NCBI GenBank assembly: GCA_023511455.1
Contig: JAIMBJ010000027.1
Coordinates: 1-51,474 of the forward strand
DNA: 51,474 bases
Direction: 5' to 3'
Origin: Bacillota bacterium
GTDB lineage: Bacteria; Armatimonadota; HRBIN16
A program made the translations under genes and the position numbers. The notes beneath the pieces are model-generated. The model worked only from the letters and a program-made list of their open reading frames with translations. It was not told where the DNA came from and ran no database searches. The first letter of the stretch is position 1, and every line of letters begins with the position of its first letter. This document shows, one piece after another, positions 24,489 through 27,677 of this stretch.

Positions 24489-24723
24489 AATCCTATGATA
24501 ACAAAAAGGCTCAGAAGTCGTCTATGTCATTGGAACAAGGGGAGGACGTGCGAGCAAAGGAAGGCGTGTCTCACGCTGGGACAGTCGTCCCGTCGCCGCC
24601 CGGCGGAGCCCGCCCGCCCATGTGTGTCAGAAACGGTGCGGGCACCCGCTGTCTCTCCGCAGTGTGGGTTGGCGCGAGGGGGAGCCTACGGTGCTCGCAC
24701 CGAAATAGATAAGGAGCGACGCA

Positions 24724-25326
24724 ATGGACGCGCAAGTATGGGAGTGGCGAGTGGCAACCGGAGAGCATCCCCGGCAAGAGGGCGAGCAGCAGCTCATTGA
24801 ACGCTGCCGCGCGGGCGATATGGAGGCGTTCGGCACGCTGTGGCAGCAGCACCGCACAGCGGTCTTCCGCAGTATCCTGGGTATCGTGGGCAATCCACAA
24901 GATGCCGAAGACCTCACCCAGGATGCTTTCTTGCGTGCCTATCGCGCTCTGGATAGCTTTCGCGGTGAGGCACAACTGCGAACGTGGCTCATCCGTATCG
25001 GCGTGCACCTGGCGATAGACCATGTGAAGCGCAAAAAAGCGCGTCCGGAGGTGTCTCTGGACTGGGATGTGGGCGGCGGATATGCAGACATAGACCCGCA
25101 TACCGCTGCCGAGCGCAACGAACTGCGCGAAACGGTGCGGAAAGCCATCGAAGCCCTGCCTCCCCATCATCGCGCAGTGATTGTGTTGCGAGATATGGAA
25201 GGAATGGATTACTCGGAGATGGCGCAGGCGCTGGGATGCAGCGTGGGTAGTGTGAAACTACGCCTGTTTCGTGCCCGGCGACTGCTCAAGCAGCGACTGG
25301 AAGTGCTTCTGGGGGGATCACCATGA
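24724..25326 (+). CDS. ECF-type RNA polymerase sigma factor
   Basis: 200 residues, start ATG with AAGGAG ahead. Region 2: QLIERCRAGDMEAFGTLWQQ, then NPQDAEDLTQDAFLRAYRAL and FRGEAQLRTWLIRIGVHLAI. Region 4: ALPPHHRAVIVLRDMEGMDY and ALGCSVGSVKLRLFRARRLL, the DNA-binding helix-turn-helix. There is no region 1 or 3, so it is an ECF (SigW/RpoE-type) factor. Its TGA overlaps the next ATG by four bases. It heads a four-gene operon and is presumably inhibited by the next gene product. Confidence 0.97.
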   Translation: MDAQVWEWRVATGEHPRQEGEQQLIERCRAGDMEAFGTLWQQHRTAVFRSILGIVGNPQDAEDLTQDAFLRAYRALDSFRGEAQLRTWLIRIGVHLAIDHVKRKKARPEVSLDWDVGGGYADIDPHTAAERNELRETVRKAIEALPPHHRAVIVLRDMEGMDYSEMAQALGCSVGSVKLRLFRARRLLKQRLEVLLGGSP

Positions 25327-26060
25327 AACGGCTTCTGTGCCGTTGGGTAGAATACTACCTTGCCCTGTGCGAGGATGACATAGAACCCGGCTTGCCCGGC
25401 TGGGTGCGCCGGCACCTGCAGTCTTGCGCACGCTGTCAGGCGGAGGCAAATGCCTATCGCCGCGCGCGTGAGGCGGTACGCCGATATGCCCGACTGTTGC
25501 CCGATGCACCCGTCGGAGGCTGGCAACCGGTGCAGGTTCATGCAGAGAGGAAGCAAAGGGTCTTCCCGTTGCAGGTGGCGCTGGCTCCTGTCGCAGTGGC
25601 AGTAGTAGCGTTGATTGGGTTTGTCGTGTGGCAGAGGGCTTCGGCACCAGTGGATGACGGAGTTCCCCAAACGCAGATAGCGCAGATCGCCCAGCCATCG
25701 CAGCAGGAAGCGGTGGAGCGGGCTAAAAAGGTTGTTGCTCCCGCGGCAAAAGGCACTCAGCGCAAACAAAACCCACCTGCGCAACGAGTCGGGCCGGAGC
25801 CGAACAGACCTGCTCCATCACTGCGTCAAGCACCCTCGCCACCGGTGCATCGTCCTCCCAAACGCATTCTGGTCGCTGCTCAGCCGCTCGCTCAGACTGC
25901 GCCTGAGACGGAGACCCAGCCTGCTGCTGAATCGTTACCTGAAGTGGAGGTACCCGTGCAGCCAGTGCTGGTGGAGGCATCTCCTCCTGCAACTCGCGAT
26001 ATACCGGAAGCCTATGTGGTACAGCCGGCTTACGCCGCTGCAGCGGGCGGAGTAGAGTAG
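25323..26060 (+). CDS. Membrane-bound anti-sigma factor with zinc finger (zf-HC2 type)
   Basis: 245 residues. The cytoplasmic N-terminal part holds RRHLQSCARCQ, the His-x3-Cys-x2-Cys of zinc-binding anti-sigma domains, with an earlier Cys in LALCEDD. A single membrane segment VALAPVAVAVVALIGFVVWQ (about 81-100) follows. The outer part is low complexity, rich in Pro, Ala and Gln, a flexible spacer through the periplasm. It overlaps the sigma gene by four bases. The usual model is sequestration of the sigma factor until the membrane protein is cut or changed. The outer domain has no sensor fold that I recognise. Confidence 0.92.
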   Translation: MKRLLCRWVEYYLALCEDDIEPGLPGWVRRHLQSCARCQAEANAYRRAREAVRRYARLLPDAPVGGWQPVQVHAERKQRVFPLQVALAPVAVAVVALIGFVVWQRASAPVDDGVPQTQIAQIAQPSQQEAVERAKKVVAPAAKGTQRKQNPPAQRVGPEPNRPAPSLRQAPSPPVHRPPKRILVAAQPLAQTAPETETQPAAESLPEVEVPVQPVLVEASPPATRDIPEAYVVQPAYAAAAGGVE

Positions 26061-26073
26061 GGGGGGAAGTACC

Positions 26074-27210
26074 ATGCGGTTACTCGTATCCTTTCTGCTG
26101 CTTGTGCTTGTCACCGGCGCGGTATGGGCACAGGGGGTGCTGGACTCTCTGGAGCGCGAGGTGACCGCGCTGGCTCGTAAGACACAGAACGCGGTGGTCT
26201 CTGTGGAAGGGGGCGCGCTGGCACCTCCGGGTTCTTCGCCTTCTGCCTTCTGGATGAGACCCGAGAACGAGCCCACACGCCGTATGCTGCAGACCTTCCG
26301 GCTGTTCAACCTGCCCAATCCCATCACCCGCAAGGGCAGTGGTTTCATTGTGGACAGGGAGTGGGTACTGACCAGTGCGGATGTGGTGCGGGGAGCGGAG
26401 CAGTGCGTCGTGCGCCTTGCAGACGGCACCAAGCTGACGGGCCGGGTGGTCAGCCTTGATGATGTGACCAATCTGGCGATGGTGAAAATCCCTGCGGTGT
26501 CTTTGCCTGCCTTGCCTCTGGGCGACTCGGATAGGGTAGAGCAGGGTAGCCTTGTGCTGTGCATGGGCACGCTGGGCGGTTACGAGCGGTCGCTTGCCCT
26601 GTGTGTGGTTGCAGGGAAGGAGCGCACGGGCGTTATTGGTCAGCAGCAGTTTTTGTCCAACCTGATACAGATTTCGGGCGCAATCGGAGTGGGGAGCAGC
26701 GGTGCGCCGGTACTCAACTCGCGGGGCGAGGTGGTGGGTGTGATTGTCGCCAGTATCGCCCCCGGGATGCTCTTTCGCCCGACCGATGCAGGGGATAGCA
26801 GGCAAACCGGCACCCCCGCGCCCACTCTGGGAACTTCGGTAGACATGTCGCTGCTGGGCACGACGGGCGGCGCGCTGGCAGTGCCAATTAACGATGTGAA
26901 AGCGGTGCTGGACGATATGCGGGCAGGGAGATTGCGTCGCCCCTTCCTCGGTATCATGCCCGCTGACCGCGACGGCGCGGAGGGCGCAGAGGTGGTGCGT
27001 GTGGTGCCAGGCAGCCCCGCTGCACGTGCCGGAATCCGCCTGGGAGATGTCATCCTGTCTCTAAATAAGTCGCCCGTACGCCGCGCTGCGGACGTGACGA
27101 GTGTCCTGCGTCGTCTGAAACCCGGAGACGTTGTGGAGATAGAACTTTTGCGTGGTAACCAGAGGCTCCGGGTAAGCGCGCCTCTGGCAGAAAGGGGCAA
27201 CTCGCGATGA
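26074..27210 (+). CDS. HtrA/DegP-like PDZ protein lacking the catalytic His and Asp (probable pseudoprotease)
   Basis: 378 residues. Signal peptide or anchor RLLVSFLLLVLVTGAVWAQG, trypsin-like domain about 35-230, and a PDZ domain about 285-370 (RPFLGIMPAD, PGSPAARAGIRLGDVILSLN). The active-site blocks are recognisable but altered. The His motif LTNNHVV reads LTSADVV with D103. The Asp motif reads DDVTNLAMVKI with N133 where Asp is expected. The Ser motif keeps the serine as GVGSSGAP (S209). A triad D-N-S cannot give the usual charge relay. It lies 13 bases after the anti-sigma gene and overlaps the next gene by four. A scaffold, sensor or chaperone role seems likelier than proteolysis. Confidence 0.9.
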   Translation: MRLLVSFLLLVLVTGAVWAQGVLDSLEREVTALARKTQNAVVSVEGGALAPPGSSPSAFWMRPENEPTRRMLQTFRLFNLPNPITRKGSGFIVDREWVLTSADVVRGAEQCVVRLADGTKLTGRVVSLDDVTNLAMVKIPAVSLPALPLGDSDRVEQGSLVLCMGTLGGYERSLALCVVAGKERTGVIGQQQFLSNLIQISGAIGVGSSGAPVLNSRGEVVGVIVASIAPGMLFRPTDAGDSRQTGTPAPTLGTSVDMSLLGTTGGALAVPINDVKAVLDDMRAGRLRRPFLGIMPADRDGAEGAEVVRVVPGSPAARAGIRLGDVILSLNKSPVRRAADVTSVLRRLKPGDVVEIELLRGNQRLRVSAPLAERGNSR

Positions 27211-27677
27211 TGTGCCGATTGAAAACCGTCGGCGATAACGAAGAGGACATCGCCCCGAACTTTACCCTTCCTGATGTCCGTAACGGGCAGCCCGTGTCTT
27301 CTGCGGCTTTCCGACAGAAAAAGCCGATGGGGCTTTTGCTGGTGCAGGACGTAGAGGTCGCCGACCGCGCTGTGCATTATGCCAGCGAATGGTTAAGTCA
27401 TTTCTGTGAAGCCCACGCCGTCCTCACTGTAGTCGTGCGCCGTCCGGTAACTGTAGATTATCCCGAGCCGTTGCTGGTGTTGATGGATAGCAACGGCAGC
27501 GTTTTCGAACAGTACGAATGCCCCTTGGACGCCGCGGTGTGCGTCTACGGACTGGACCGTTTTGGAGCCGTGGTGTATCTTGCCAGCTGCGGTGCGGAAG
27601 ATTTGCCCGCGGTTCTCCCCCGCCTGCAGGATGCCATCGAACTCTCCGAGATGCAGTGCCCCGAGTGCGGTGTGTAA
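27207..27677 (+). CDS. Redoxin-fold protein without thioredoxin active-site cysteines
   Basis: 156 residues. The opening EEDIAPNFTLPDVRNGQPVS resembles the start of peroxiredoxin/AhpC-TSA domains (x-x-P-x-F-x-L), followed by alternating strands (GLLLVQDVE, AVLTVVVRRP, LLVLMDSNG, CVYGLDRFGAVVYLA). At the place of the catalytic Cys or CxxC of thioredoxins the sequence reads LVQDVEVADRAVHYAS, with no cysteine. A CPEC pair stands alone at the very C-terminus, MQCPECGV, possibly a metal or redox site. Its start overlaps the HtrA-like gene by four bases, so it is the last gene of the sigma operon. Fold is likely, enzyme activity doubtful. Confidence 0.7.
   Translation: MMCRLKTVGDNEEDIAPNFTLPDVRNGQPVSSAAFRQKKPMGLLLVQDVEVADRAVHYASEWLSHFCEAHAVLTVVVRRPVTVDYPEPLLVLMDSNGSVFEQYECPLDAAVCVYGLDRFGAVVYLASCGAEDLPAVLPRLQDAIELSEMQCPECGV

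Follow-up and report, generated by a model that had tools for sequence, protein, structure and literature searches.

We analysed a stretch of DNA of 51,474 nucleotides (hereafter the window), which is one contig (JAIMBJ010000027.1) of a 3.85 Mb genome of the Armatimonadota, and found in it an operon where an extracytoplasmic function (ECF) sigma factor and its anti-sigma factor are followed by an HtrA-like protein that has lost two of the three residues of the catalytic triad. The conserved unit is sigma factor, anti-sigma factor and pseudo-HtrA, and the pseudo-HtrAs of such units form a single clade. Since the protein has stayed next to a sigma factor and an anti-sigma factor over a very long evolutionary span, it probably works as a sensor or shield and not as a cutter. 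ECF sigma factors belong to the main bacterial routes for reading the envelope, and the HtrA proteins in such routes are usually treated as cutters; if our interpretation is true, a PDZ/protease scaffold can act as a pure sensor or shield. In the openly available literature we found no report of an anti-sigma operon that contains a dead HtrA.

The genus sample consisted of the window genome and nine other species (n = 10), and for the wider comparison a profile search was carried out over 291 genomes, all from the Armatimonadota, after which the loci were read. These loci were picked by their likeness to the pseudo-HtrA profile, and the frequencies given for them are not a census. All features described are on the + strand of the window.

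The four open reading frames form a real operon in the order sigma, anti-sigma, HtrA-like and redoxin-like, with overlaps of 4 bases between genes 1 and 2 and between genes 3 and 4, and a gap of 13 bases between genes 2 and 3, exactly as a first-pass annotation of the window had laid it out. An orthologous operon was present in all ten genus genomes, with identical order and adjoining the same divergent gene for a S-adenosylmethionine (SAM) hydroxide adenosyltransferase. The first gene (24724..25326), preceded by the Shine-Dalgarno sequence AAGGAG (24711..24716), encodes a sigma factor of 200 aa with Pfam matches to PF04542 (Sigma70_r2, residues 39-105) and PF08281 (Sigma70_r4_2, residues 136-188), and having region 2 and region 4 only it is an ECF sigma factor; its identity across the genus is 89-99%. 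The third gene (26074..27210) encodes a signal peptide, read from the sequence, then a trypsin-like domain and one PDZ domain (Pfam Trypsin_2 and PDZ), which is the domain order of HtrA proteins. Both assignments agree with those of the first-pass annotation. The predicted structure of the pseudo-HtrA matches DegP, DegQ, AlgW, MucD and M. tuberculosis HtrA, and Foldseek also returned Deg1.

The triad positions were assigned by alignment to solved DegP and DegQ structures, and this confirmed the earlier proposal that two triad residues are lost. The catalytic His is replaced by Asp103 (codon 26380..26382) and the catalytic Asp by Asn133 (26470..26472), and the catalytic Ser is kept as Ser209 (26698..26700). 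A protein without the triad would not be expected to be competent as a site-1 protease of the DegS/AlgW type. The Asp and Asn substitutions are found in 10/10 genus genomes, with the Ser kept throughout, and this rules out strain-specific decay, the outcome in which the window strain alone would be degenerate and the first-pass annotation would have failed. Across the genus the motif around the Ser is GxSGA, compared with GNSGGP, and the HtrA identity is 63-87% (97% over the cut-off copy of genome G007). The PDZ domain (26941..27180; PF13180, residues 290-369) has an intact carboxylate-binding loop (FLGI), of which Gly293 is invariant in 23 sequences.

Operons of sigma, anti-sigma and an HtrA whose triad is broken were also found in two further families, f7 (19 HtrAs, including that of genome G029) and f31 (4 HtrAs). 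Among the 28 pseudo-HtrAs compared, the His position is D or E in 27, and the Asp position is N in 25 and G in three. The Ser is present in families f1 and f7, with one Asn. The f7 residues are D/E, N and S, with the single exception of genome G095 (S, N, N), and those of f31 are D/E, G or N, and P or Q; in f31, then, the serine is lost and the acid kept, and the Asn is usually lost too. A sigma factor gene lies directly upstream in 26 of the 28 cases, and in the other two the contig starts at or just before the HtrA gene. In a tree of sampled sequences built without the triad columns, one branch (support 100/99.5) separated the 28 pseudo-HtrAs, together with one further protein from locus L184, from 24 intact HtrAs. 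The sigma factors linked to pseudo-HtrAs also group apart from those beside intact HtrAs, weakly (support 60). A clade split from the intact HtrAs at the level of the phylum, together with a triad loss fixed in the whole genus sample, supports the suggestion of the first-pass annotation that the system may sense without cutting.

The families also bear on what the altered site might do. Since f31 lacks the serine, catalysis by the clade is unlikely. At the His position, 27/28 proteins keep an acid, f31 without its Ser included, which points to constraint without catalysis, and its retention in f31 suggests a structural or binding role.

Intact HtrAs coexist with the pseudo-HtrAs in the same genomes, some of them within their own operons of a sigma factor, a zinc-associated anti-sigma (ZAS) factor and HtrA, and M50 proteases were found in 9/10 genus genomes. 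The window genome itself has such a second operon (contig C42, L176:2409-5145), with His-Asp-Ser intact and a different promoter, an ECF-like site of the form GGGAACC-N16-CGTAATA. In an f31 genome (G203, L171:1-5888) the pseudo-HtrA operon adjoins an intact sigma / HtrA pair. Four f7 genomes (G088, G089, G090 and G094) carry two paralogous pseudo-HtrAs or operons, the anti-sigma factor ending in Tyr in one type and in Trp in the other. The L184 protein (L184:2586-5577, genome G233), which falls with the pseudo-HtrAs, is sigma-linked and partly degenerate (Asn-Asp-Ser) and possibly represents an intermediate stage.

The second gene (25323..26060) encodes a ZAS-type anti-sigma factor with an HxxxCxxC zinc finger, one transmembrane segment (residues 85-103) and an outer region rich in Pro and Ala. 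The residues H31, C35 and C38 of the zinc motif, and C6 upstream of it, are invariant in 13 aligned anti-sigma factors. The earlier description of a zf-HC2 anti-sigma with one membrane segment therefore stands for the zinc motif and the membrane segment, and not for a formal zf-HC2 match, which in Pfam fails the cut-off (E of 0.14 in the window protein and of 0.0034 in the best relative). From its position in the operon we infer that the protein binds and inhibits the cognate sigma factor. Its identity across the genus is 46-77%. The protein ends in a conserved C-terminal tail, AYVVQPAYAAAAGGVE (26010..26057), which holds a [YF][VIL] motif common to the f7 and f31 anti-sigma factors; in the anti-sigma factors of pseudo-HtrA operons this motif lies ~15-30 residues before the C-terminus. 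The last residue is Tyr in 9/9 f7-a proteins, Trp in 7/8 and Leu in 1/8 f7-b proteins and Phe in 4/4 f31 proteins, so that outside the window's genus 20 of 21 anti-sigma factors linked to pseudo-HtrAs end in an aromatic residue; in those next to an intact HtrA the last residue is Arg or Asp. The PDZ domains of the HtrA family take C-terminal hydrophobic residues, and AlgW and DegS bind WVF and YxF ends (PMC8545111). The change from Tyr to Trp to Phe with the aromatic character kept suggests selection on the tail as an HtrA-type PDZ ligand, and the aromatic-ended tails of f7 and f31 make PDZ binding of the tail plausible.

Upstream of the sigma gene we identified a putative autoregulatory ECF promoter, GATAAC-N16-CGTC (24497..24522), and the same boxes were found in 10/10 genus genomes and at nine f7 loci. 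When spacings from 12 to 21 were scanned, 19 matches had a spacing of 16 and one a spacing of 13, with none at the other spacings. In f7 the GATAAC-N16-CGTC site stands upstream of sigma in 9/17 operons, and a GATAC variant is found at most f7-b loci. We consider this conservation upstream of sigma strong evidence, and autoregulation of the operon by its sigma factor is therefore likely. A related site with one more base in the spacer, GATAAC-N17-CGTC, was seen in the window genome at contig C42, 15007-15034, in the end of an anti-sigma gene just before an intact HtrA gene, and at the same place in genomes G001, G004, G005 and G009; it is thus kept in 5/6 genomes searched, and is possibly a promoter or possibly conserved coding sequence alone.

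From these observations we propose, giving it about an even chance of being right, that in an autoregulated ECF sigma / ZAS system the non-catalytic HtrA gates cleavage of the anti-sigma factor by binding to its tail. The pseudo-HtrA would be exported and would hold the periplasmic tail of its cognate anti-sigma factor, the PDZ groove taking the C-terminus and the dead protease cleft probably taking the YV(I/M/V) segment. Occupancy of the tail would gate the access of a site-1 protease, most likely an intact HtrA of the same genome, and an M50-family site-2 protease would take over the cleaved anti-sigma factor. The occupancy might shift under envelope stress, for instance if misfolded proteins offer their C-termini to the PDZ domain in competition with the tail, and the freed sigma factor would switch on transcription of its operon at the GATAAC-N16-CGTC site. 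Two additions would be particular to the window's genus: regulation of sigma after transcription by the structured leader RNA, and an accessory protein, cytoplasmic and redox-dead, with a thioredoxin fold. Protection of an anti-sigma tail has precedents in FoxA/FoxR (PMC11637429) and in RseB/MucB, which are comparable in role and not in fold. None of the four operon proteins had a Pfam match to the MucB/RseB domain, and any likeness to RseB/MucB is functional only.

Several points weigh against this proposal. The anti-sigma factors of the window's genus have the motif (AYVV or GYVI) and end in Glu, not in an aromatic residue, so that in this genus the PDZ domain may contact the C-terminus in another way or not at all; this element of the model is at its weakest in the very genus where the finding was made. 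The data would also fit protection of the tail and its presentation to a protease equally well. When a wider regulon was sought with the exact pattern TGATAAC-N15-17-CGTC, the counts were close to those for a control with the pattern reversed, and no site recurred convincingly apart from that of the operon. Finally, the pseudo-HtrA may be no more than a chaperone that acts as an effector, a periplasmic holdase (a protease-dead protein like DegP) induced by sigma and not itself a regulator. This alternative has a smaller but real share of the probability. It agrees with the position of the pseudo-HtrA gene downstream in an autoregulated operon and with the work of HtrA proteins as chaperones besides proteases (PMC12826053), but it leaves unexplained why the anti-sigma tail is aromatic-ended only where the partner HtrA is dead, and why the linkage in the operon is so strict.

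Rather doubtful is a role as an activator, in which the pseudo-HtrA would promote anti-sigma cleavage by activating an intact HtrA. The model for it is MamO, a catalytically dead HtrA-family protein that is needed for MamE-dependent cleavage with its own active site unused (PMC4794232), and the coexistence of intact HtrAs in these genomes provides possible partners. However, MamO depends for this role on a C-terminal transporter domain, which the pseudo-HtrA lacks, and nothing points to hetero-oligomers. It is very improbable that the protein has remained a hydrolase and works through an unconventional site of Ser-Glu/Asp-Asn. The acid, the Asn and the Ser are indeed kept together in f1 and f7, and the Ser-Glu-Asp site of the sedolisins offers a loose parallel, but f31 of the same clade has Pro or Gln for the Ser and usually lacks the Asn with the acid still kept, and the genus motif is GxSGA. 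Plain decay of a duplicated HtrA that is losing its function deserves hardly any credence, the loss of two triad residues being already contradicted as a sign of decay by the 63-87% identity in the genus, the same substitutions over a very long divergence, the single clade and the fixed operon context.

Between the promoter and the sigma start codon, all ten genus genomes contain a structured leader RNA of 71 nt (24634..24704), in which a P1 stem of 13 bp (24634-24646/24690-24702) encloses P2 and a small P3. The leader is 93-100% identical between species, compared with 44-80% for the neighbouring sigma gene at its four-fold degenerate sites, and its minimum free energy (MFE) of folding has a z of about -4. 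The 13-bp P1 is present in the predicted whole-leader fold of 10/10 genomes. In P1, P2 and P3 all aligned positions are paired, and four stem substitutions keep the pairing, none of them two-sided, which gives weak covariation support; two-sided covariation is lacking because the leader hardly varies. The Shine-Dalgarno sequence of the sigma gene is mostly unpaired in the predicted fold. The leader appears restricted to the genus: among the 281 other Armatimonadota genomes only three weak matches were obtained (E 0.02-0.07), and the f7 loci have short leaders without the 71-nt element. Rfam gave no credible match at E up to 5, and a known RNA was rejected; a repeat or mobile element was ruled out by the single copy, and a coding upstream open reading frame by a TAC to TAA stop in one frame in three genomes and by shifts of the other frames in genome G001. 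We infer that the leader may be cis-regulatory, as a riboswitch, a protein-binding leader or a thermosensor, and it is a candidate for a new class of regulatory RNA attached to a sigma factor.

The rest of the 5' untranslated region has diverged in the upstream alignment, apart from a short conserved element GGAGGAC.TGCG (24541..24553). It contains a run like a Shine-Dalgarno sequence, with GTG/TTG immediately after, and is partly complementary to the 3' strand of P1. A mutually exclusive pairing of GTGCGAGC (24548-24555) with that strand looks possible by eye, and was rejected since folding does not predict it and it is broken in G001 and G004.

The fourth gene (27207..27677) encodes a protein of thioredoxin fold with neither a signal peptide nor a membrane segment, and its product is probably cytoplasmic. 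It has no Redoxin or AhpC-TSA Pfam match of its own, and the fold is supported by an AlphaFold2 model (predicted local distance difference test, pLDDT, 86) that matches ResA, Bcp and peroxiredoxins with TM-scores of about 0.54-0.71 (query). A CxxC or a peroxidatic Cys in the active-site loop was found in none of eight orthologues, so the loss of the active cysteines noted at first reading is real; two other cysteines, C128 and C151, are kept. The gene evolves much faster than its neighbours (40-48% identity in the genus) and is absent from the genus member G004, as it is from those f7 loci that were fully read. We regard it as an accessory gene particular to the window's genus, and the initial idea of a conserved four-gene unit does not hold. 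Its place outside the conserved core, like the leader RNA, the ECF promoter and the conserved anti-sigma tail, goes beyond the first-pass annotation.

A bolder form of the proposal, which we put forward only tentatively, is that the phylum-level clade of pseudoproteases would have turned its PDZ domain into a receptor dedicated to the C-terminus of the cognate anti-sigma factor, with stress read as competition of peptides for a dead protease, and that one genus would have added a leader RNA, maybe of a new riboswitch class.

Compared with known systems, the leader resembles the orphan riboswitch-like leaders in being a highly conserved structured RNA in the 5' untranslated region of a regulator, and differs in having no Rfam family, in its restriction to one genus and in the lack of two-sided covariation. 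The RpoE-RseA-RseB system of E. coli with DegS, and likewise AlgU-MucA-MucB with AlgW in P. aeruginosa, shares with the window operon an ECF sigma factor, a single-pass anti-sigma factor, an HtrA with a PDZ domain and a genomic M50 protease. However, DegS and AlgW are active site-1 proteases and the HtrA of the window operon is not; it would act more like RseB or MucB, on an unrelated fold. The sigE-rseA-htrA-tatB locus of M. tuberculosis has the same order of sigma, anti-sigma and HtrA (PMC10027907), and its HtrA was also matched by the structure model. The locus differs in that its HtrA has been described as essential and as a serine protease, and in that sigE and rseA are transcribed separately. 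Within the window genome, the operon on contig C42, with its sigma and ZAS genes and intact HtrA, is the nearer counterpart of this locus. MamO, the magnetosome pseudo-HtrA, is similar as a member of the HtrA family that has lost catalysis and gained a new non-catalytic role, although it has Thr for Ser, binds metal and has no link to a sigma factor (PMC4794232). Lastly, the signalling domain of FoxA resembles the role proposed here, since a periplasmic partner shields the anti-sigma factor FoxR from proteolysis until the signal arrives (PMC11637429), the partner in that case being the domain of a TonB-dependent transducer and not an HtrA.

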